Virus record (IMG/VR): IMGVR_UViG_3300042914_001626
Span: 1-24,871 of that record
DNA length: 24,871 nucleotides
Reading direction: 5' to 3' (one strand)
Source of the DNA: a virus
Every line of letters begins with the position of its first letter. Within the stretch, counting starts at the first letter, position 1. The notes under the pieces were generated by a model. It made no database searches and had not been told where the DNA came from. It saw nothing but the letters and a program-made list of their open reading frames with translations. Below, piece by piece: positions 3,112 through 19,200 of the stretch. Both the position numbers and the translations under genes were made by a program.

Positions 3112-3186
3112 CCTGTCCTGTTTACCTAATTTCCTCCTATTGAAAATAATGGGAAATACTTATTATTTATATCCCCTATATGCTAG

Positions 3187-3393
3187 TTATGTGCCATTTT
3201 TTAGGACAGCGTACACATTATCGGCTTCTTCTTTTGTATCATAAGCACCTATTGATGATAGTCTGTTATTTATCTTAATCCTAACTATCCATTTTTTTAT
3301 TATTTCACCAAAAGAAACGCCTTCAACAGTTTGTTCTGTTTTATCTCTACGTTTAGTTTGTCTAAATGAATTTCCGTAATTTAATCCTGCCAT
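3187..3393 (-). CDS. Small AP2-domain-like DNA-binding protein
   Basis: 68 residues from ATG at 3393; an extension to a TTG at 3420 would run into the inverted repeat upstream and is rejected. A basic N-terminus (RQTKRRDK) leads to WIVRIKINNRLSSIGAYDTK and then EEADNVYAVL. This W-x-V-x-I ... G-x-(Y/F)-x-T-x-E-E-A pattern is that of the AP2/ERF-like fold found at the DNA-binding end of phage and mobile-intron homing endonucleases. No nuclease domain is present, so it is either a stand-alone DNA binder or a remnant. Its stop codon (TAA, 3187-3189) lies inside a GTTATGTGC box similar to the ones beside the neighbouring small genes. Confidence 0.55.
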   Translation of the reverse strand: MAGLNYGNSFRQTKRRDKTEQTVEGVSFGEIIKKWIVRIKINNRLSSIGAYDTKEEADNVYAVLKNGT

Positions 3394-3413
3394 AATCTGA
3401 ATAAAAACGGCAC

Positions 3414-3504
3414 ATAACAAGGGATTTGCGTAATAGCCCTATCAAGTGTCGTGGTTAATTTTAAGTTTATACTAAAGGCAACTACGCAAAGCCCCAAACG
3501 TTAG
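3414..3504 (-). repeat. attC-like imperfect inverted repeat, site 1
   Basis: On the plus strand GGG-A-TTTGCGTA (3421-3432) is complementary to TACGCAAA-G-CCC (3483-3494) with one mismatch; GCC/GGC (3436-3438 and 3477-3479) can extend the stem. About 50 unpaired bases lie in the middle. The outer boxes are ATAAC (3414-3418) and GTTAG (3500-3504). Long imperfect arms bounded by AAC and GTT boxes are the architecture of integron attC sites. The 3501-3692 gene ends inside the GTTAG box. Confidence 0.5.
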
Positions 3505-3692
3505 TGGTCATGCACCTTGCATTTTTCACACTTACGCCTCATATCATTATCCTCATTCGGGTTTACCCAAATCCATTCGTGATTGCACGAACCACTAACA
3601 CTAAATAAACGCAATAGCTCACTTAGTGCTTGTTGAACAGGCATAGTGCCTTCATCAACTTTTATCAATATATTTTCAATTTGTTTTTCCAT
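3501..3692 (-). CDS. Small putative zinc-binding protein
   Basis: 63 residues. A helical N-terminal half (MEKQIENILIKVDEGTMPVQ and onward) is followed by SCNHEWIWVNPNEDNDM and RRKCEKCKVHDH. The C-x-H ... C-x2-C-x2-H pattern in the last 30 residues could hold one zinc ion. No family recognised. It stands alone between two attC-like sites, with 100-180 non-coding bases on each side, unlike the tightly packed phage genes around it. The TAA stop (3501-3503) is part of the GTTAGTG box. Cargo-like accessory gene is the best description. Confidence 0.5.
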   Translation of the reverse strand: MEKQIENILIKVDEGTMPVQQALSELLRLFSVSGSCNHEWIWVNPNEDNDMRRKCEKCKVHDH

Positions 3693-3714
3693 ATCGCTAC
3701 TGCGTTTATTATTT

Positions 3715-3871
3715 TACGTTATAGGCAATAAAATTAAACGCCAACGCTCTTAGTCACTTCGTCAATCTTTGCATATTTTAATTAACTTATATCGCCCCAT
3801 CGTCAATCTTTGCACATTTTAATTAACTTACATCTTTCAGTACATTCTACTAGCTGCAAACCGTTAGGTGC
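3715..3871 (-). repeat. Degenerate attC-like site, site 2
   Basis: Outer boxes CGCCAACG (3740-3747) and CGTTAGGTG (3862-3870) are complementary with one bulge; GTTAGGT fits the integron core GTTRRRY exactly. A further GTTATAGGC box is at 3719. Inner arms are not clearly complementary, and the middle is filled by two copies of a 33-base direct repeat, so this is a weak or decayed site that is supported mainly by its position between two single-gene units. Confidence 0.3.
3760..3833 (+). repeat. Two 33-base direct repeats, 41 bases apart
   Basis: Copies at 3760-3792 and 3801-3833 begin CGTCAATCTTTGCA and contain ATTTTAATTAACTTA. They differ at only two positions (T or C at the 15th and 31st base). 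The spacer is 8 bases. There are only two copies and no third related unit nearby. Confidence 0.85.
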
Positions 3872-3875
3872 AACC

Positions 3876-4091
3876 CTAAATGACATCCTCTAAAAATTGA
3901 TTAGCCATTCTTATTGCAACTTGTTCAGAATTTATTTCAGTCTTTTGTTTGTAATTTGTATTTATAACCCAATCGCCAAACATTGCTTTTGTAAGGACTT
4001 GTAAAAAATATTCATACCCATTTTGTATCGGACTTTTTTGACGATAGATTTGAACTTTACGATTGTTTTTTTCAATTTCTTTATGTAACAT
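3876..4091 (-). CDS. Unknown small protein, cassette-like
   Basis: 71 residues, basic N-terminal half (MLHKEIEKNNRKVQIYRQKS) and a helical C-terminus (SEQVAIRMANQFLEDVI). No motif recognised. It is bounded by attC-like sequence on both sides: its start is 32 bases from the GCTAAC box at 4122 and its TAG stop is 5 bases from a GTTAGGTG box. Isolated single genes with long flanks are unlike the phage operons on either side and suggest separate acquisition. Confidence 0.5.
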   Translation of the reverse strand: MLHKEIEKNNRKVQIYRQKSPIQNGYEYFLQVLTKAMFGDWVINTNYKQKTEINSEQVAIRMANQFLEDVI

Positions 4092-4114
4092 TTTATTATT
4101 GATTTATGAAGAAG

Positions 4115-4250
4115 GTCAGCCGCTAACAAGTGCTATACAATATGGCGGCTGACGTGCTTCAATTAAATATTTTTACTAATTCAAACTTTAGTGCTTCGTA
4201 TCAACTTTTGTGGTAGAAATCCGCCACATCGTATAGCACCGATATGTTAC
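4115..4250 (-). repeat. attC-like long inverted repeat, site 3 (best formed)
   Basis: GTGCTATACAATATGGCGG (4130-4148) and CCGCCACATCGTATAGCAC (4221-4239) are complementary at 17 of 19 positions on the plus strand. In a minus-strand transcript the two mismatches become G-U pairs, giving a continuous 19-bp helix with a 72-base middle. Outer boxes are CTAAC (4123-4127) and GTTAC (4246-4250). A competing perfect 9-bp hairpin, GTCAGCCGC (4115-4123) with GCGGCTGAC (4145-4153), uses part of the left arm. The stop codon of the 4247-4477 gene lies in the GTTAC box. Confidence 0.55.
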
Positions 4251-4477
4251 TTCACCTTCACATAAACCCTATCACCAACTTGCCTTACAAACTGCCCCTT
4301 AATGGTCAGGACTGAATCCTTTCCAACTTTACCGAGGTTGTATCCGATTGGGATTTGGTTGTTTATGATTGGCTTTGGCTGCGAGTGGTTCTTTGTGGAA
4401 AGCGTTCCTAGCCACATCAAAATCAAAAACCCAATTGCAATGTAAATGCCTAACAAGAGTTTATAAGAACTATCCAT
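4247..4477 (-). CDS. Small single-pass membrane protein
   Basis: 76 residues from ATG at 4477, chosen because GGAGG lies 6 bases upstream; the longer frame has no such site. Residues 7-23 (LLLGIYIAIGFLILMWL) are a membrane helix; the remainder, containing IPIGYNLGKVGKDSVLTIKG and ending RVYVKVK, looks like a small beta domain facing outside or the cytoplasm. No family recognised. The start overlaps the previous stop by 8 bases, so it is the last gene of a three-gene coupled set, and its stop sits at the edge of the attC-like repeat. Confidence 0.65.
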   Translation of the reverse strand: MDSSYKLLLGIYIAIGFLILMWLGTLSTKNHSQPKPIINNQIPIGYNLGKVGKDSVLTIKGQFVRQVGDRVYVKVK

Positions 4478-4607
4478 TTTCCACCTCCTTTTTAATGATT
4501 TGTTCCTTCTCCAGCCTATCCCTTTCAATCTTCGCAACCTTCAATATCTGCTCATAGTGGCAAGGTTGACATCGTAATTGGATGCGTTTGGTTCTTGGTT
4601 GTTTCAT
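4470..4607 (-). CDS. Very small basic helical protein
   Basis: 45 residues from ATG at 4607, preceded by AAGGAGGACAAATAATG: a strong Shine-Dalgarno sequence and a TAATG stop-start overlap with the upstream gene. The longer frame would need a TTG far inside that gene and is rejected. It begins KQPRTKRIQLRCQPCHYEQI with a Cys-x2-Cys-His cluster and continues as a charged helix rich in K, E and R. Function unknown; nucleic-acid binding is possible from the charge alone. Confidence 0.6.
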   Translation of the reverse strand: MKQPRTKRIQLRCQPCHYEQILKVAKIERDRLEKEQIIKKEVENG

Positions 4608-12448: not shown

Positions 12449-12485
12449 AGCCGGTACTCGCCATCAGTATCGGCTTTTTTTATTT
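12449..12485 (+). terminator. Rho-independent terminator after the 45-residue gene
   Basis: AGCCGGTACT (12449-12458) pairs with AGTATCGGCT (12466-12475) through 10 bp with one G-T, loop CGCCATC, followed by TTTTTTTATTT. It isolates the small gene from the terminase operon. Confidence 0.85.
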
Positions 12486-12492
12486 AATTTTG
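12485..12492 (+). promoter_or_regulatory. Putative -7 box of the terminase operon
   Basis: TAATTTTG, 26 bases before the ATG at 12518 and just after the terminator. No TTG at the expected upstream distance, so late expression may need a phage activator or read-through. Confidence 0.4.
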
Positions 12493-12517
12493 CAAAAACT
12501 ATTTTAGATTTATTAGA

Positions 12518-12796
12518 ATGGCTAATTTAACTGGTCGCAAGTTTGGAGGAAGGACCAAAGGAACTCCGAATGTAGACAATAAACCAATAAAAGAGAAGTT
12601 TGACCAACTACTATCAAAATATTCAGTTGAGCAAATGGCTGATGATTTAATGAGTATTGAGAATCCAGCAGATAGATTGAAAATTATAATCGGATTAGCT
12701 GAGTTTCTTATTCCAAAAATGGCAAGAAGTGAGGTGTCAGTTGAATCAGGAATTAAACCTATTATCTTAATACCCGGTGAGCCAACAGATAATTGA
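12518..12796 (+). CDS. Putative small terminase subunit
   Basis: 92 residues. The N-terminus TGRKFGGRTKGTPN is the Gly/Arg/Lys-rich start common in small terminase-like proteins of Bacteroidota phages, followed by helices (IKEKFDQLLSKYSVEQMADD, ADRLKIIIGLAEFLIPKMAR). Small terminases bind phage DNA and load the large subunit. The gene overlaps the large terminase gene by 20 bases. It is shorter than typical TerS proteins, and the call rests on context as much as sequence. Confidence 0.55.
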   Translation: MANLTGRKFGGRTKGTPNVDNKPIKEKFDQLLSKYSVEQMADDLMSIENPADRLKIIIGLAEFLIPKMARSEVSVESGIKPIILIPGEPTDN

Positions 12797-14066
12797 TTTT
12801 GCTACCTATGCGGATAAATTATTCAGCAAGGTATTTTATCAGGTCCGCAAAGTCAAGAGTAGAATAGTTGTAATCTATGGAGGAGCCGGATCCTCCAAGA
12901 GTTATTCCGTTCATCAGAATGAATTGATTAACCTAATGAGTAGTAACTATGATACTCTAATGCTAAGAAAGACTGGCAGCGATTTAAGAGATTCATCGTA
13001 TAAGCTATTTGAGCAGCTAATTGATAGCATGGGTTTAAGGCATCTATTTACTAGCAGCTTTTATTCCGATAATAGGCGAATAACTTACATACCAACTGGC
13101 AAGTCATTAATCTTTAAAGGAGTTGATGATTCGGAGAAGTTGAAGTCAATAGTTGGCATTCAGCGAATCGTAATGGAGGAGGCATCTCAATTCGATTTTG
13201 AGGACTTCCTTGAAATCAATCGAAGGGCAAGAGGTGTGGATAATATTCAAATCACTTTAATCCTTAATCCGGTATCGGAGAAGCATTGGATTAAACGTAA
13301 GCTATGTGATGAAGGTAGTCCTTATGCAAATGATACTACGGTCCTAAGATTTACCTATTCAGATAATAAGTTCTTAACTGCATCCGATATTGCAGAATTG
13401 GAAAGGTTGAAGTATGTCAATGAAAATCAGTATCGAATTTATGTTTTGGCAGAGTGGGGAATTGATGACAATAGTAATCGTTTTGCCTATTCATTCAATG
13501 AGGATAAGCATACAGGATTATGTGAGTTGCTGGATAAGGAAGCGATATACCTATCCTTTGACTTTAACCGAGATCCGATTTCATGCACCGTATTCCAAGA
13601 GAAGGATGGAGTGATAAGAGTGCCTTATGTCATTAAATTAGCTACATCGAATATCTACGAACTATGCGACCATATCATTGCCAAGTTCGGCAGAAAGCTA
13701 TTTATGGTAACCGGTGATGCTACTGGTAAATCGTCCTCTGCAATGGTCCAAGACGATATTAACTACTATACCATCATTCGGCAGAAGTTAAACCTATCTG
13801 CTGGTCAACTCCAAGTTCCATCAGTCAATCCAAGAGTGCGAGAGAATAGGGTGCTAGTCAATGCTATTTTAGAGCATAAGAAAGTGCTAATCGATAAAGT
13901 CAATGCAGCACCTTTAATTTACGACCTATTATATTGTGAGGTTGATGGCAATGGCGATTTGGTTAAGGATAGAAGTAATGACAAGAGAAAGGCTGATATA
14001 TTGGATGAGTTTAGGTACTATCTTAATACCTATCACTCCGATTTTCTTGAAATGGTTGGAAGATAA
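12777..14066 (+). CDS. terL: Terminase large subunit (PBSX-like, terminase_3 family)
   Basis: 429 residues. The ATPase has a Walker A YGGAGSSKS at residues 34-42, an adaptor-like arginine stretch (LMLRKTGSDLRDSSY), and a Walker B IVMEEASQF near 131-139. The nuclease domain shows acidic residues in SFDFNRDP (about 263), VTGDATGKS (about 311) and a C-terminal Asp pair near 404-415 (KADILDEFRYYL). The enzyme drives DNA into proheads and cuts it. No in-frame ATG comes before the ATPase core, so the start is a GTG at 12777 inside the small-subunit gene. A promoter begins four bases after its stop. Confidence 0.93.
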   Translation: MSQQIIDFATYADKLFSKVFYQVRKVKSRIVVIYGGAGSSKSYSVHQNELINLMSSNYDTLMLRKTGSDLRDSSYKLFEQLIDSMGLRHLFTSSFYSDNRRITYIPTGKSLIFKGVDDSEKLKSIVGIQRIVMEEASQFDFEDFLEINRRARGVDNIQITLILNPVSEKHWIKRKLCDEGSPYANDTTVLRFTYSDNKFLTASDIAELERLKYVNENQYRIYVLAEWGIDDNSNRFAYSFNEDKHTGLCELLDKEAIYLSFDFNRDPISCTVFQEKDGVIRVPYVIKLATSNIYELCDHIIAKFGRKLFMVTGDATGKSSSAMVQDDINYYTIIRQKLNLSAGQLQVPSVNPRVRENRVLVNAILEHKKVLIDKVNAAPLIYDLLYCEVDGNGDLVKDRSNDKRKADILDEFRYYLNTYHSDFLEMVGR

Positions 14067-14069
14067 TTG

Positions 14070-14099
14070 TTTGATATATCAATTTATTTTCTATTTTTG
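14070..14099 (+). promoter_or_regulatory. Near-perfect promoter directly after terL
   Basis: TTTG (14070-14073), 18-base spacer, TATTTTTG (14092-14099): a full match to the Bacteroidota consensus, with the same TATTTTTGC core as the early promoters. Start of transcription would be about 14105. No protein gene follows within 400 bases. Confidence 0.65.
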
Positions 14100-14104
14100 C
14101 ATCG

Positions 14105-14200
14105 AAGTGTGGAGACTTCATTAAAGAATTTTTGTTTTTGCTTTTTTTCATAGCTACCAAAAAGACCCCGTTGCTCTCCATCTTCGGGGTTTCTTTTTTG
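14105..14200 (+). ncRNA. Predicted small RNA of about 95 bases
   Basis: Bounded by the promoter at 14070-14099 and the terminator at 14163-14199. It begins with a small hairpin GAAGT/ACTTC (14104-14119) and has a U-rich centre (TTTTTGTTTTTGCTTTTTTT within 14130-14148) that may be single-stranded or bind an RNA chaperone. No ORF of useful size on the plus strand. It could also simply be a short leader to the terminator after terL. Confidence 0.4.
14163..14199 (+). terminator. Rho-independent terminator downstream of terL
   Basis: AGACCCCG (14163-14170) pairs with CGGGGTTT (14185-14192) over 8 bp with one G-T, 14-base loop, followed by TTTTTT at 14194-14199. Confidence 0.85.
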
Positions 14201-14512
14201 GTTACTCCCCGATTCTAAGAAACTATGAATTGAATAACCGAAGGTAACGTAAGACCACCGAAAGTTTTGCCGAAAGGACTTTGATAATCGGGTATTACAA
14301 ACATTCGATAAATCTTGCTCTGTCCATCCTGACAACAAGTCCATGAAGCCGAAAGGATAGAATGTTTGCGTGTATGGAGACACGATGTCTTAAAAGTTGC
14401 TCGAATTTTGGAAGTTTCAATGTTTTCCAAAGTTCAAACTATGTTGTATTAGTATTTGCTAAATCAGTAATACCTTTACTTCATGGAGAAAGGATAGGTA
14501 TGTTTAAAAGTG
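14201..14512. other. Non-coding interval with nested stems, possible structured RNA
   Basis: No convincing gene. Perfect stems are CCCGATT (14208-14214) with AATCGGG (14286-14292), and CAAACATTC (14298-14306) with GAATGTTTG (14360-14368). Inside the second stem, CTTG/CAAG and TGTC/GACA (14314-14339) form a further hairpin with loop CATCCT. The decamer GCCGAAAGGA occurs twice, at about 14269 and 14348. The interval is less AT-rich than its surroundings. Minus-strand open frames of 71 and 99 residues cross it, but have no start signals, overlap each other and run through the terminator. Confidence 0.4.
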
Positions 14513-14520
14513 TAATTTTG
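14513..14520 (+). promoter_or_regulatory. Putative -7 box before the GT25-like gene
   Basis: TAATTTTG followed by C, 17 bases before the ATG at 14537. The -33 TTG is missing. A promoter here is expected because a terminator separates this gene from terL. Confidence 0.4.
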
Positions 14521-14536
14521 CAGTAAATATCAATCA

Positions 14537-15154
14537 ATGCCAGTCGGACCATTCCTAAATCAATTCTTCCAATCGGTTAAGTTCATTAATCTTCCAAGTA
14601 GCGAAGACAGATTGAATCATTGCATCAATCAGTTTGATTCGATTGGATTAAAGGCAGACAGGGTAGAAGGAGTATTGATGGAGGATAGACGAGTTGGATG
14701 CAATATAAGCCATTTAAAAGCATTAAAGGAAAGTACCGGGCATTCATTAATATTCGAAGACGATGTCATTTTCAGTTCATACATTTCCGAACTAGAGCAG
14801 ACACTTATTGATCTACCTGATGATTGGCAGATATTCTACTTAGGTGCAAATCATAAGCAAGAACCAACTCCAATTAAGGATAACTTAGCAATAGCGGTTG
14901 AGTCATATTGCACTCATGCCTATGCAGTTAATGAATCATTTAAGGATGAACTGATAAACATCATTGAGTCTGATGGAAGGATAATTGATTGGGTTATTGG
15001 AGAACTGGTCCTAAAAGGTCAAATCAAAGCATATTGCTCCAATCCTAATCTAGCATTCCAATTGCCTAGCTACTCTACTATTGAAGGACGATGGATGAGT
15101 TATGATTTTATGGTTCCAAGTCGAGATTTAGATAGGTTAGAACTATTCAAATAA
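14537..15154 (+). CDS. GT25-like glycosyltransferase
   Basis: 205 residues. The family pattern of LPS-type GT25 glycosyltransferases is visible: VKFINLPSSEDRLNHC at the N-terminus (nucleotide-binding strand), a short middle with GCNISHLKALKES, the acidic motif FEDDVIF near residue 77-83 that would hold the metal and sugar nucleotide, and DDWQIFYLGANH. The family transfers sugars to LPS, or to hydroxylysine in animals. In a phage late operon it more likely decorates virion proteins or alters host surface sugars. It stands alone between two putative promoters. Donor and acceptor unknown. Confidence 0.78.
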   Translation: MPVGPFLNQFFQSVKFINLPSSEDRLNHCINQFDSIGLKADRVEGVLMEDRRVGCNISHLKALKESTGHSLIFEDDVIFSSYISELEQTLIDLPDDWQIFYLGANHKQEPTPIKDNLAIAVESYCTHAYAVNESFKDELINIIESDGRIIDWVIGELVLKGQIKAYCSNPNLAFQLPSYSTIEGRWMSYDFMVPSRDLDRLELFK

Positions 15155-15159
15155 TTTGC

Positions 15160-15167
15160 TAAATTTG
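15160..15167 (+). promoter_or_regulatory. Putative -7 box before the 15182 gene
   Basis: TAAATTTG followed by C, 15 bases before the ATG, in a 27-base gap. No TTG at the expected distance (TTAG is nearest). Weak on its own. Confidence 0.3.
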
Positions 15168-15181
15168 CCAAAACTATTCCT

Positions 15182-15433
15182 ATGGCTAAAAGCAAACCAA
15201 TACCAAAAATTACTAAAGGAAAAGGTAAGACATTCTTGCCAATTTCGCAAGGTGCTGGAATGACCGAGCAAGGAAGGAAGTTGTACAATCAGCTAAATGA
15301 TTCTAATCTAAAACCACCAGCACCCAATCCAAAGACTGATGCAGACAAGAAGCGTAAGGATTCATTTTGTGCAAGGTCCATCGGCTGGACAGGGGAACGT
15401 GGTAAAGCCGCAAGAAAGAGATGGAACTGCTAA
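15182..15433 (+). CDS. Small basic conserved phage protein (CARS-GW motif)
   Basis: 83 residues, very rich in Lys. The C-terminus KRKDSFCARSIGWTGERGKA followed by ARKRWNC matches a motif (SFCAR-x2-G ... A-x2-(K/R)-W-x-C) that recurs in short virion-associated proteins of unrelated phages; I believe it belongs to a domain of unknown function (DUF6321-like), recalled from pattern only. High charge and position at the head of the structural operon suggest a capsid or DNA-associated component. It overlaps the next gene by 13 bases. Confidence 0.65.
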   Translation: MAKSKPIPKITKGKGKTFLPISQGAGMTEQGRKLYNQLNDSNLKPPAPNPKTDADKKRKDSFCARSIGWTGERGKAARKRWNC

Positions 15434-15744
15434 TCTTTAAATATATGCTTACTACATCATTAATCACTGCATTTATCATTATAGGCATTACCAAAGCTAC
15501 TGAGGAAGGTTATATCTTAGAGCCATTAAAGCTATGGGCAGAGCAAGAAGCTGAGAAGTCAGAACTAGTAAGATTCATATTAACTCCAGTTGTACTATGT
15601 TGCTACTGCATGAGCAGCGTTTGGACAATAATTGTCCAATTACAAATAGGATATACATCACTTATATCTTTGTGCGGTTCGATATTTCTAACTCTAGGAA
15701 TGGTTGTTTTAATTAAATCAATAGTTGACAAACATGACAATTAG
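15421..15744 (+). CDS. Integral membrane protein of unknown function
   Basis: 107 residues with about three membrane segments: residues 10-23 (LTTSLITAFIIIGI), 53-73 (LTPVVLCCYCMSSVWTIIVQ) and 79-100. The central loop is acidic (LWAEQEAEKSE). A Cys cluster lies in segment two. Start at 15421 overlaps the previous gene by 13 bases; an alternative ATG is at 15445. Membrane proteins are unusual within a head-tail operon; it may be involved in superinfection control or assembly at the membrane, but no family was recognised. Confidence 0.6.
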   Translation: MELLIFKYMLTTSLITAFIIIGITKATEEGYILEPLKLWAEQEAEKSELVRFILTPVVLCCYCMSSVWTIIVQLQIGYTSLISLCGSIFLTLGMVVLIKSIVDKHDN

Positions 15745-15961
15745 CGAAGTAAGTCAGTCATTGATGGCTGCTGGGTTTAAGAAGATGCACTCTTGCGGAT
15801 GTGGCGGTGGTGAGAGTAGTTGGAGTAAAAATGGAAGCACTAAAGTAATTCGTGTTCGATTTACTCCTAAAATAATCGAGATTAGGGATAGGAATCGTCA
15901 TGGTAAGATATTGGCATCATTTAAGTTAGATCAGGTAAATCAAGTAATAGAATCAGTATGA
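15734..15961 (+). CDS. Small protein with Cys-Gly cluster
   Basis: 75 residues from ATG at 15734; a TTG three codons earlier is ignored. After a helix (TISEVSQSLMAAGFKKM) comes HSCGCGGGESSWSKNGSTKV, then beta strands (VIRVRFTPKIIEIRDR) and a C-terminal helix. It overlaps the gene before by 11 bases and the next by 4 (ATGA). Function unknown. Confidence 0.6.
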   Translation: MTISEVSQSLMAAGFKKMHSCGCGGGESSWSKNGSTKVIRVRFTPKIIEIRDRNRHGKILASFKLDQVNQVIESV

Positions 15962-16596
15962 TTAACAAGTTAAAAAAAATATTAGCAGCGTTAAAGGTCC
16001 AATCCAAAGCACCAACATTTGCAACCGACAAGCGAATTGTAGAGGCTTTTGTGCTTGATGGAATAACTTACTATACCTTTGACGACATCTTCAATATTCC
16101 AGTTGAACGTGCCTTCTCAGCGATAGACCACTACAATGAGATGCAGCAGCGATGCACTAGAGACTACCTAATTAGCCATCTTGATGCTCAGAATGAGATT
16201 CTATCTAGCAAGAAGATTGACATCACTAAGTTGGCTCAACTGAATCTTAATTTAAAGGAAAGGTTGGAGATGATATTCGATGCTGATTTATTATATAAGT
16301 TGGCATCAGTAGTCTACTTTGACTCGTCCGAATCACCTTACAAGTACGATTATAAGTATGGCATTGAAAAGATTAGAAGGTTCAAGAAAGCTGATGTGGA
16401 TGCTTTTTTTTTGAAGACTCCCATCAAAAACTATCTTCCCTTCAAGGATATATCACCAGACGATTTGAGGACCTACATAGCGGTGGGCAATCAGGTCAAC
16501 CTAGTTCATCTGAAGACTCTTTCACAAAATCTATCCAAGAGCGAATCGAAGGAAGGTTTATTGAAAGAATTAGAATTGCGGGACATTTCAATATAG
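15958..16596 (+). CDS. Tail assembly chaperone, zero-frame product (G-like)
   Basis: 212 residues, starting MINKLKKILAALKVQ. A domain around residues 20-150 is mostly helical (TFDDIFNIPVERAFSAIDHY). The C-terminal part after the slip site (FLKTPIKNYLPFKDISPDDL and onward) is zero-frame specific. It is assigned as chaperone because it lies directly upstream of the tape measure gene and contains a frameshift signal, as in lambda G/GT. Sequence alone does not identify the family. If there is no frameshift, 105 non-coding bases would remain before the tape measure start, unlike all other gaps in this operon. Confidence 0.7.
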   Translation: MINKLKKILAALKVQSKAPTFATDKRIVEAFVLDGITYYTFDDIFNIPVERAFSAIDHYNEMQQRCTRDYLISHLDAQNEILSSKKIDITKLAQLNLNLKERLEMIFDADLLYKLASVVYFDSSESPYKYDYKYGIEKIRRFKKADVDAFFLKTPIKNYLPFKDISPDDLRTYIAVGNQVNLVHLKTLSQNLSKSESKEGLLKELELRDISI

Positions 16597-16700
16597 ATCC
16601 CGAACACTTAAGCCATTATTCATTCTATGAGTATTGGTTACTTAAAGAAGCCTACATTACCGAAATAAGGCAATTAAATAGTAGGCATAATACTGATTAA
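15958..16700 (+). CDS. Tail assembly chaperone, -1 frameshift product (GT-like)
   Basis: 247 residues if ribosomes slip by -1 in the T9 run. After codon GCT-TTT-TTT the frame continues as EDSHQKLSSLQG, then KSIQERIEGRFIERIRIAGH, NIDPEHLSHYSFYEYWLLKE and ends RQLNSRHNTD. The YSFYEYWLLKEAYI ending resembles C-termini of tail assembly chaperones, where the extension binds the tape measure or tail tube protein. The stop (16698-16700) is one base before the tape measure ATG, as expected for a real, coupled frame. The -1 frame is closed by TGA at 16391, so the shift must happen after that. Confidence 0.65.
16404..16413 (+). other. Slippery site for -1 programmed frameshift
   Basis: Nine T followed by G. 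In the zero frame this reads T TTT TTT and T TTT TTG, both of the form X XXY YYZ. No other heptamer of this form occurs in the 205-base overlap of the two frames. Immediately after, GAAGA (16413-16417) can pair with TCTTC (16434-16438), a weak stimulator. Confidence 0.6.
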
Positions 16701-16701
16701 A

Positions 16702-19200
16702 ATGGCAGTAGAGAGAGTAGTAATCGAGATTACAGGAGATACAAGTAAGATTAAGTCAACCATCGCTGAACTGGAGAAGTTAGGCAAGGTTGACAGGGAT
16801 AATGCTGATTCCTTCAAAAGAAATAATAAGGAATACAATGACCAGTTAAATAAGACTAAGGGGAATATAGGTTCGTTTGCAGAGCAAATGAATAGCTTAA
16901 AGCAGCAAATCATTGGTGCATTTGCTATAACCTCTATAGTAGAATTTGGAAAAGAGTCTCTTAAGACCTCAGCTAAGATTAATTCAATAGGCAACTCATT
17001 AAAGTTTATTACCGGATCTGCTGCTAATGCGGAGAAAACAATGGAATATCTTAGAGACCTATCCAATCGTCTAGGTCTTGAGTTTGAAAGTACCGCACAA
17101 GCATTTAAGCTATTCGCCGGTGCTACTACTCAGTCAGGAATGTCGCTAAGTGAGAGTAAGACTATCTTTGAACAAGTAAGTAAGGCAGTTACGACTATGG
17201 GACTGTCTGCTGACGATGCAGAAGGTGTGTTCCTAGCCCTTTCGCAAATTATGAGTAAGGGCGTTCTGTCGGCCGAGGAATTGCGTCAACAAATTGGGGA
17301 ACGGCTTCCCGGTGCGTTTGCAGCAGCAGTAAAATGGTCAGGCAAAACTGAACAAGAGTTCAATAAATTGCTTGAAACTGGTCAAATATTGTCTAAGGAT
17401 TTTCTTCCCGGATTCGGCTCACAAATTGAAAAAGACTTAGGGGGTGGTTTTGAAGATGCTGCAAATGGAATGCAAGCCAATTTGAATCGCTTGCAAAATA
17501 TGTGGACTGATTTCAAGAATTTCTTTGGTGCATACATAGTTTATCCATTAGTTAGTGCAGTGAAAGGATTACTTGTTGATGTACCAAAGATGCTCCTTGA
17601 TGATTTAACAAGGGTATTTTATAAGAAGACAATATTTGATATACCTGAGATAAAAGCCCAATTTGATGCAGTTGAAGCTAATTTCATTAAATTAGGAGTT
17701 AGAGTTGCAAATGCTAAGACAATTAAAGATTTAGAAGTATTAGGTTCAACAACAACTAAGTATTTCAATAGTCTATCCTCAGGCATGAAAGAACTAGCTA
17801 ACTCACAATATATGTCGGTTATGGATCAACTTAGTGATAAATATAAAGATGTAGGAAATTCGGCAACTGCTTCAAAGATAAACTTAGATAAAATCATAAA
17901 AACATTTAAAGAGTTTGGTAAACAAGCTAAAGAAGCTAATAGTAAGGACGATATAACTAAAATTGGCAGAGGTGTAAGGGACTTCTATTCATCACTTGAA
18001 AAGGGAGTAAAACCTGAGGTTAAAAAGTATTATTATGAGGTACTTGACTTACTAAAGGCTCAGGGTATTGAATTGGGTAAATTAAAAGAGAAATTAGGTG
18101 CGTATGATGATCTCCTTAAGTCTGCATCTGAGGTTGAAAAAGCACTTCAAAATTTATATGCTAGTGGAGTACTCGCTAATACTCCGCTAGAAATAAAGCT
18201 AAGAACCGTACTTGCTCAGATTGATATGATTAATGAGAGGGTAAGACAAGCTAAGGAAGGATTTGATAAAATGGAAACCACAAGTGGAACAGAGAAAGGT
18301 GGAACACCAAAGGCATTTACAGAAGCTATTACTGCATTTGGCAAACCTTCTGAAAATAAGTTGGCAATCGATCAAATAGTTGAAAATGCAAAAAAAGCAA
18401 ATGATGAATTTGATAAGATTGAAGAAGAAAGAACAAGGAAGTTTAAGGAGGAGCAAGAAAAGCGAAAAGCGGCAGAAGAAGAATTTTATAATAAACTACC
18501 ACAATTTGCATCACAAGCCATTAGCATTATTTCACAATATCAAAATCAGGCGGCAGAATATGAGTTACAAGTATTGAATGAGAAGTTGGCGGCAAAGCAA
18601 ATAAGCGATAAAGAGTATGATGACCAAAGAAGGAAGATATTGACCAAACAAGCACAGGACCAAAAGGCTGCGGCAATATTACAGGCTACGATTGATATTG
18701 CAGGTTCTATTATGTCAACTTTAAAACAATTTGGAGGCACTCCATATGGTATTGCAATGGCTGCTATAACTGCTGGATTAGGTGCGGCACAATTAGCGGT
18801 TATTCAAAGCCAAAAGATACCAAAGTTCAAAAAAGGTACTGACTATGTGTCGTTAAATGGAAACCCTAAAGGAGAGGATACCATTCCTGCCTTGCTAAAT
18901 GAAGGAGAGGCGATTATAAGGACAGAAGAAAACGCTAAATATCCCGGACTCGCTAAGGCTTGGAATGATGGCAAACTGGACGAACATATTTACTCAAAAT
19001 GGATTACTCCTGAGTTGATTTTAAAGAAATCAATAGAACGTGAGGCTATTGATTATGATAAGTTAGGTCAATCAGTTGCAGACTCGATTAAAAAGAATCC
19101 ACAAGTTAAAGTGTCATTCGATAAGAGTGGATTTGCTACTTACATAATTAAAGGTAGTAGTGTTATTAATTACCAAAACAATAGATATTCTAGCAAATGA
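16702..19200 (+). CDS. Tail tape measure protein
   Basis: 832 residues. The N-terminal 250 residues show the TMP pattern: VVIEITGDTSKIKSTIAELE, a long helical region, then KTSAKINSIGNSLKFITGSA, LGLEFESTAQAFKLFAGAT, GVFLALSQIMSKGVLSAEEL, RQQIGERLPGAFAAA and NGMQANLNRLQNMWTDFKNF, known from tape measure N-terminal domains. The middle is helical and charged (coiled coils around 390-490 and 560-600). Hydrophobic Ala/Gly-rich stretches at about 650-700 (IDIAGSIMSTL, AMAAITAGLGAAQLAVI) precede a C-terminal FKKGTDYVSLNG and EDTIPALLNEGEAIIRTEEN. It sets tail length and enters the host envelope during DNA injection. Length implies a tail of roughly 110-130 nm by the usual 1.5 angstrom per residue rule. 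Confidence 0.92.
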   Translation: MAVERVVIEITGDTSKIKSTIAELEKLGKVDRDNADSFKRNNKEYNDQLNKTKGNIGSFAEQMNSLKQQIIGAFAITSIVEFGKESLKTSAKINSIGNSLKFITGSAANAEKTMEYLRDLSNRLGLEFESTAQAFKLFAGATTQSGMSLSESKTIFEQVSKAVTTMGLSADDAEGVFLALSQIMSKGVLSAEELRQQIGERLPGAFAAAVKWSGKTEQEFNKLLETGQILSKDFLPGFGSQIEKDLGGGFEDAANGMQANLNRLQNMWTDFKNFFGAYIVYPLVSAVKGLLVDVPKMLLDDLTRVFYKKTIFDIPEIKAQFDAVEANFIKLGVRVANAKTIKDLEVLGSTTTKYFNSLSSGMKELANSQYMSVMDQLSDKYKDVGNSATASKINLDKIIKTFKEFGKQAKEANSKDDITKIGRGVRDFYSSLEKGVKPEVKKYYYEVLDLLKAQGIELGKLKEKLGAYDDLLKSASEVEKALQNLYASGVLANTPLEIKLRTVLAQIDMINERVRQAKEGFDKMETTSGTEKGGTPKAFTEAITAFGKPSENKLAIDQIVENAKKANDEFDKIEEERTRKFKEEQEKRKAAEEEFYNKLPQFASQAISIISQYQNQAAEYELQVLNEKLAAKQISDKEYDDQRRKILTKQAQDQKAAAILQATIDIAGSIMSTLKQFGGTPYGIAMAAITAGLGAAQLAVIQSQKIPKFKKGTDYVSLNGNPKGEDTIPALLNEGEAIIRTEENAKYPGLAKAWNDGKLDEHIYSKWITPELILKKSIEREAIDYDKLGQSVADSIKKNPQVKVSFDKSGFATYIIKGSSVINYQNNRYSSK

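Follow-up and report, generated by a model that had tools for sequence, protein, structure and literature searches.

The window, by which we mean the whole stretch of 24,871 nucleotides that was analysed, is a 24.9-kb virus record with genes for a terminase, a tape measure protein, an endolysin, a DnaB-like helicase, ERF and a cytosine methylase. Judging from its relatives, it probably derives from a tailed phage of Bacteroidota-type bacteria; the host itself is not shown. A megablast of the window against deposited phages returned no DNA relative, and scanning relatives of the DnaB-like gene for an array-free phage returned none, leaving no comparison phage without the array described below. 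The window proteins scanned gave no match to recombinase or integrase families. In the interval separating the terminase from the tape measure genes (14066-16702), neither a portal nor a capsid family was identified; a glycosyltransferase-like ORF is situated there at 14537-15154.

On its minus strand, the window holds at positions 3186-4249 a four-unit array, one unit being broken, with three hairpin sites that fall within 840 bases. The minus-strand ORFs that the original prediction had placed at 3187-3393, 3501-3692 and 3876-4091 are all present. Read in gene direction, the upstream phage gene (4247-4480, minus strand) ends at TAA^C, its own stop codon TAA being made by the TAAC box of site A, and is followed by unit 1, the broken unit, unit 2, unit 3 and then phage sequence. 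Unit 1 consists of site A, ORF 3876-4091 and a tail to 3863. Site A (4124-4249) is a 126-nt hairpin site of the form TAAC...GTTA (112 bits, 3e-21; fold z -3.9) and belongs to ORF 3876-4091, which it precedes, not to ORF 4247-4480. Next come a leader, GTTAGCGGCTGACCTTCTTCATAAATCAATAATAAA (4092-4127), common to many unrelated ORFs in other contigs, and the ORF itself, which encodes 71 aa of no known family and has relatives in other contexts (L002-L010). The tail at 3863-3878 joins the stop codon to a right-hand box, TAGGGTTGCACCTAAC, and reads TAGGGTTGCCGCTAAC in the relatives.

The GTTAGGT at 3863, earlier noted only as a box close to an ORF end, is indeed such a box, namely the tail box of ORF 3876-4091; beyond it comes the left arm of a further, broken unit, the fourth (3722-3862), which the prediction had not distinguished. 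This unit contains a left-arm remnant, GGTTTGCAGCTAG, and a repeated stretch; the paired right arm is absent and a covariance model search gave no match within 3722-3862. The unit is filled by two near-identical copies, at 3745-3843, of 'cgtcaatctttgca(t/c)attttaattaactta(t/c)atc'.

Unit 2 comprises site B, a 126-nt hairpin site at 3596-3721 (52.3 bits, 5.6e-9; z -3.2), and ORF 3501-3692, which encodes 63 aa with a weak zinc-ribbon match and reads through the GTTAG box. The start codon of this ORF lies in the loop of site B, so that the ORF is not preceded by a plain spacer. Unit 3 comprises site C, an 89-nt hairpin site at 3415-3503 (47.8 bits, 4.9e-8) with the weakest fold of the window sites (z -1.9), the ORF that it precedes (3187-3393) and a tail to 3186. 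The ORF encodes 68 aa with an AP2/HNH-associated DNA-binding-like domain (PHROG 99 4.5e-8; AP2 0.0046), and its tail AAAAATGGCACATAAC (3186-3201) is an inverted repeat of its own leader GTTATGTGCCGTTTTT (3403-3418). The array is partly decayed. It is co-directional with the phage early genes and is therefore probably transcribed together with them, which is an inference.

Two gaps had been described as carrying long inverted repeats with TAAC and GTTA ends, 4130-4148/4221-4239 (17/19 complementary) and 3421-3432/3483-3494. Both repeats are there, and far beyond chance: across 828 kb of related loci, an arm-pair scan for TAAC...GTTA ends detected 121 sites, vs 5 in locally shuffled sequence. 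The scan also revealed the third window site, 3596-3721, which the count of two gaps had overlooked (52 bits, 5.6e-9). An earlier, stricter site scanner missed nearly all sites. The sites are hairpins of 60-130 nt with variable arms. Alignment of 40 diverged sites showed constant ends and freely varying arms; AAC and GTT were invariant or nearly so, and the outer three box letters often deviated from the attC core consensus RYYYAAC and GTTRRRY (e.g. GTTAGCG, GTTATGT). Both sides changed in 18 of the 23 pairs of a hand-drawn helix, and the covariation score was 0.615 vs 0.157 after shuffling and no more than 0.135 when the structure was slid. One pair position was occupied by G.T in 39 of the 40 sites. 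No constant bulge, that is, an extrahelical base in one arm, was seen in this alignment, and the invariant G.T pair may play the same part as the extrahelical bases of attC. The training sites were picked for paired arms, which biases the proportion of paired cells but touches neither the fixed G.T nor the success on new sequence.

A covariance model was trained on the 40 sites, which came from other contigs; the three window sequences were excluded and close copies of site A were included. The viral site set had been seeded from one family and then widened. A search of the region with such a model had been proposed as a check of the prediction, and the model built here scored 112, 52 and 48 bits for sites A, B and C, all on the minus strand (3e-21, 5.6e-9, 4.9e-8), with E-values that rest on a short calibration. 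Rfam gave no family in the window or in three arrays, and its weak below-threshold matches were chance. Since no integrase was found in the window, the array is CALIN-like, and with our model it meets the CALIN criterion of at least two attC sites close together and no intI nearby. The proposal of an integrase-less, CALIN-type cassette array in a phage is thus supported by the covariance model matches, by relatives that vary at the boxes themselves and by the absence of an integrase family among the window proteins scanned; neither of the refuting conditions given with the prediction arose.

To define the unit that moves, we examined copies elsewhere. A 17-mer of site A was present in 30 viral contigs, and 28 near-complete copies, the window's own included, could be aligned. 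Upstream of TAAC the sequence differed from contig to contig, with the change falling exactly at the TAAC box; downstream lay either of two main leaders, followed by unrelated ORFs. An independent search with the tail TAGGGTTGCCGCTAAC recovered many ORFs that stop exactly at the TAG of the tail and start after the leader, the remaining matches being chance and outside frames. Relatives of ORF 3876-4091 had common sequence up to CCGCTAAC and diverged immediately beyond. The comparison of relatives for boundaries at the boxes, also suggested with the prediction, accordingly found variation exactly there. In 11 pairs of homologous ORFs in different contexts, identity was 0.87 in the preceding site and 0.545 in the following sequence, vs 0.54 for random sequence, and this test rejected the arrangement in which each site follows its own ORF. 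Beyond the core, leaders were complementary to their own tails at 8.3/12, vs 4.2 (SD 0.2) for other partners, as measured in units not starting GTTAGCGG. The pair identities and the complementarity of leader and tail together indicate that the mobile unit is site-leader-ORF-tail. Its boundaries fit a cut at G^TT, although no reaction was seen.

We also considered that the constant leaders and tails might be a new kind of end around random ORFs, and dropped this idea because in the circular form tail, site and leader run together without interruption, a situation comparable to that of the shared Vibrio VCR sites. In two contigs (L002, 3000-3260, and L003) the ORF of window 3876-4091 occurs without the hairpin, within a duplicated gene start and with TAACTAATGGCTATG on both sides, which may be the trace of a different insertion route.

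The built-in site direction, TAACG...TGTTA, corresponds to the bottom strand of a classical attC. Around 20 canonical IntI genes the sites pointed toward IntI by 45:6 and genes mostly had the classical orientation (33:12), validating the direction rule. In viral contigs, genes ran with the TAACG direction by 98:1, and by 76:3 in 33 contigs when the commonest site was left out; in Chitinophagales chromosomes they ran against it by 17:2. Likewise, the gene strand folded better in viral sites, by 100:9, and worse in chromosomal sites, by 5:16. The orientation of some sites was based on short ORFs. Gene direction and strand folding indicate that the phage cassettes are inverted: the site is at the 5' end of its own gene, opposite to classical attC cassettes. 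The classical layout implied by the original prediction, an ORF followed by its own attC, must consequently be abandoned, as unit boundaries, polarity and strand stability all place the site before the ORF.

About a quarter of the distinct sites (26/105) have an ATG inside the hairpin that opens a frame reaching at least 35 codons past the site, vs 9.4 expected with the loop shuffled; window ORF 3501-3692 is among the 26. Another contig (L036) carries the site and N-terminus found in ORF 3501-3692, joined to a different C-terminal part. The two copies differ by several silent codon changes; for one amino-acid change, the opposite arm shows a change that compensates it. The peptides encoded in four further sites (L038 6361-6487, L067 3765-3890, L099 6203-6329 and L033 701-827) have a motif like S(D/N)EAxxP...AV(S/I), which they have in common because a single reading frame runs over conserved loop letters.

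A XerA-like gene is missing from most of the phage records that have sites. In one phage record (L113), a 270-aa tyrosine recombinase adjoins a seven-site array; a homologue adjoins an array of eight to nine sites in a Bacteroidales MAG contig (L112), and another, of 267 aa, directly follows a twelve-site array in a viral contig (L115). These site counts shift slightly with the score threshold. The best NCBIfam match of the recombinase is NF040815 (XerA type), and it falls below the integron-integrase cut-off of TIGR02249. The associated recombinase lacks the IntI-specific I2 insertion: in an alignment to IntI4, an 83-residue IntI4 stretch is opposed by 35 residues in the query, and two of the catalytic motifs are spaced 53-63 residues apart in 31 homologues vs about 99 in IntI4. 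In the predicted model (mean pLDDT 76, weak C-terminus), the extra helix at the position of the IntI4 insertion is absent, and the best fold match is XerA, with IntI4 next. Between cassette array and recombinase, L112 has an opposite-strand ORF (12472-13368) with a C-terminal nucleotide-binding/TIR-like look, possibly a defence gene.

The association of sites with this recombinase was followed in bacterial chromosomes. Around 20 XerA-like genes of Chitinophagales we found 27 sites vs 1 in shuffles, and around 20 XerC/D-type genes 6 vs 4; the covariance model gave 26 matches (best 6.9e-20) around the former vs 2 weak ones around the latter. A survey of 296 Bacteroidota genomes, whose completeness is not given, used a cut-off of E <=1e-30 for XerA-like genes; the cut-offs between recombinase subfamilies were set by us. 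XerA-like genes occurred in 93 and sites in 139 of the 296 genomes, the two co-occurring with an odds ratio of 15 (p = 1e-20); 13 of the 93 XerA-like genomes had no site. Among the matches listed, 54 of the 55 sites within 30 kb of a XerA-like gene pointed toward it (35/36 loci). IntI exceeded its curated cut-off in 84/296 genomes, a frequency far above what the literature examined suggests for Bacteroidota. On chromosomes (e.g. Chitinophagales L158, L161, L166) the XerA-like gene was mostly on the strand opposite to the site direction, 49/54 among the matches listed, and in L112, L113 and L115 it was on the same strand.

We consider it probable that this tailed phage carries here a small array, by now partly decayed, of integron-type mobile cassettes, whose likely enzyme is a XerA-like tyrosine recombinase. 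This interpretation builds on the observed site anatomy and family, covariation, unit boundaries, inverted polarity and association with the recombinase. In gene direction, a cassette would consist of a hairpin site (TAACG-arm-loop-arm-TGTTA), a short leader, one small ORF and a tail ending YAAC. The site would serve as a folded-strand recombination site in which the recombining (bottom) strand is the gene strand, a single-strand chemistry that we infer. Cassettes may be mobile in circular form, with the cut at TAA^C / G^TT; if this inferred exact cut is right, the moving unit is site plus ORF. The enzyme would be the XerA-like tyrosine recombinase that adjoins such arrays in some phages and in many Bacteroidota chromosomes; its identity and the present mobility of the cassettes remain inferences, as no recombination was observed. 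Because the window shows no XerA-like gene, its array would rely on a copy elsewhere or be frozen. Lying 5' of the gene, the site would also supply the leader and sometimes the start codon, so that a newly inserted cassette could be read along with the co-directional early genes of the phage; its transcription from the phage operon is likewise inferred. More broadly, and with less assurance, we lean toward a second integron class, widespread in the chromosomes and phages of Bacteroidota, whose XerA-like recombinase lacks the I2 helix and moves single-strand hairpin cassettes with an invariant G.T; in its phage branch the cassettes would be inverted, the site doubling as leader and start codon.

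It is possible, although we judge it unlikely, that canonical IntI integrases of the host move the cassettes in trans and that the XerA-like gene merely shares their neighbourhood. IntI is present in the 84 genomes mentioned above, a site of Polaribacter phage P12002L is functional with IntI1 (PMC9892861), and our model finds weak matches in IntI arrays, in the expected direction. However, IntI showed no positive association with sites, which occurred in 10/59 IntI-only vs 59/68 XerA-only genomes (49/144 with neither enzyme). Model scores beside XerA-like genes (best 6.9e-20) greatly exceeded those beside IntI (best 3.8e-4), and the phage records L113 and L115 have a XerA-like gene and not IntI. 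The genome co-occurrence table thus weakens IntI as the sole explanation.

In the promoter early stem-loop cassettes of T4-type phages, a constant stem-loop comes after an early promoter, and the cassettes are spread through homologous recombination. If the present sites were regulatory stem-loops of this kind, their hairpins would promote shuffling via ordinary homologous recombination. Both settings have hairpins between small early phage genes; the hypothetical genes here are small, hairpins and leaders are held in common, and some exchange inside shared sequence is plausible. Nevertheless, we regard this account as very improbable: the arms vary freely with compensation and the cores are fixed, which homology-driven exchange does not need, and neither the direction toward the recombinase in 35/36 loci nor the same sites in chromosomal arrays would be expected. 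We know of no recombinase, free-arm covariation or site polarity in the T4-type cassettes. Transcription terminators or chance palindromes between genes, for which one may cite the AT-rich intergenic hairpins and the divergence of 2/3 window sites, are hardly credible, given E-values down to 3e-21, the excess over shuffled DNA (121 vs 5), the absence of an Rfam family and the surplus of start codons inside hairpins (26 vs 9.4). The unit boundaries and the polarity refute them as a full account.

For Bacteroidetes proper, IntegronFinder 2.0 listed a single complete integron, and Bacteroidota were put on record as nearly devoid of complete integrons (PMC9024848). With sites in 139/296 Bacteroidota genomes, a large bacterial and phage cassette pool seems to be unannotated, which points to an extensive system of gene shuffling that apparently escapes standard integron searches. 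Acquisition of the I2 helix is regarded as the step by which integron integrases came to recombine single strands (PMC7790495); hairpin-site arrays with a XerA-like enzyme without I2 would be a living alternative or intermediate, making the I2 step directly testable. Sites that bear start codons would allow phages to attach new protein ends at a constant position. We found neither XerA-type integrons nor systematically inverted phage cassettes described in the open-access literature searched, subscription papers and preprints being mostly outside our scope; relative to that literature, the integrase type and the inverted cassettes appear new.

In canonical cassettes the site follows the gene. 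The present arrays resemble canonical integrons (IntI, attI, attC; Vibrio VCR) in their single-gene cassettes, TAAC/GTT cores, structure-conserved arms, array polarity relative to the recombinase and near-identical sites common to many cassettes. They differ in that the phage sites lie 5' of their genes, that sites contain start codons, that an invariant G.T pair perhaps takes the place of bulged bases and that the recombinase has no I2 insertion. The window array meets the canonical criterion of structure-conserved paired arms with a better-folding bottom strand, but not that of an intI gene bearing the I2 helix. Xer (pdif) modules have short conserved 28-bp duplex XerC/XerD sites at both ends, unlike the variable-arm hairpins of 60-130 nt here. 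XerA-type tyrosine recombinases (PDB 5hxy, 4a8e; NF040815) are the nearest family and fold of the associated enzyme, but known members resolve duplex sites, and none is described with hairpin cassette arrays in the open-access literature searched. The closest precedent is the CALINs published in virulent phages, notably phage P12002L (Qi et al. 2023, PMC9892861), which similarly has small genes between attC-type sites and no integrase. One of its sites was shown to recombine with IntI1, and classical cassettes and 'divergent directions' were described, the sites being tied to IntI (PMC9892861). Our covariance model finds the P12002L sites, on the gene strand, and gene P12002L_0042 starts inside a site. 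In contrast to that account, inverted cassettes are the rule here and the partner is XerA-like.
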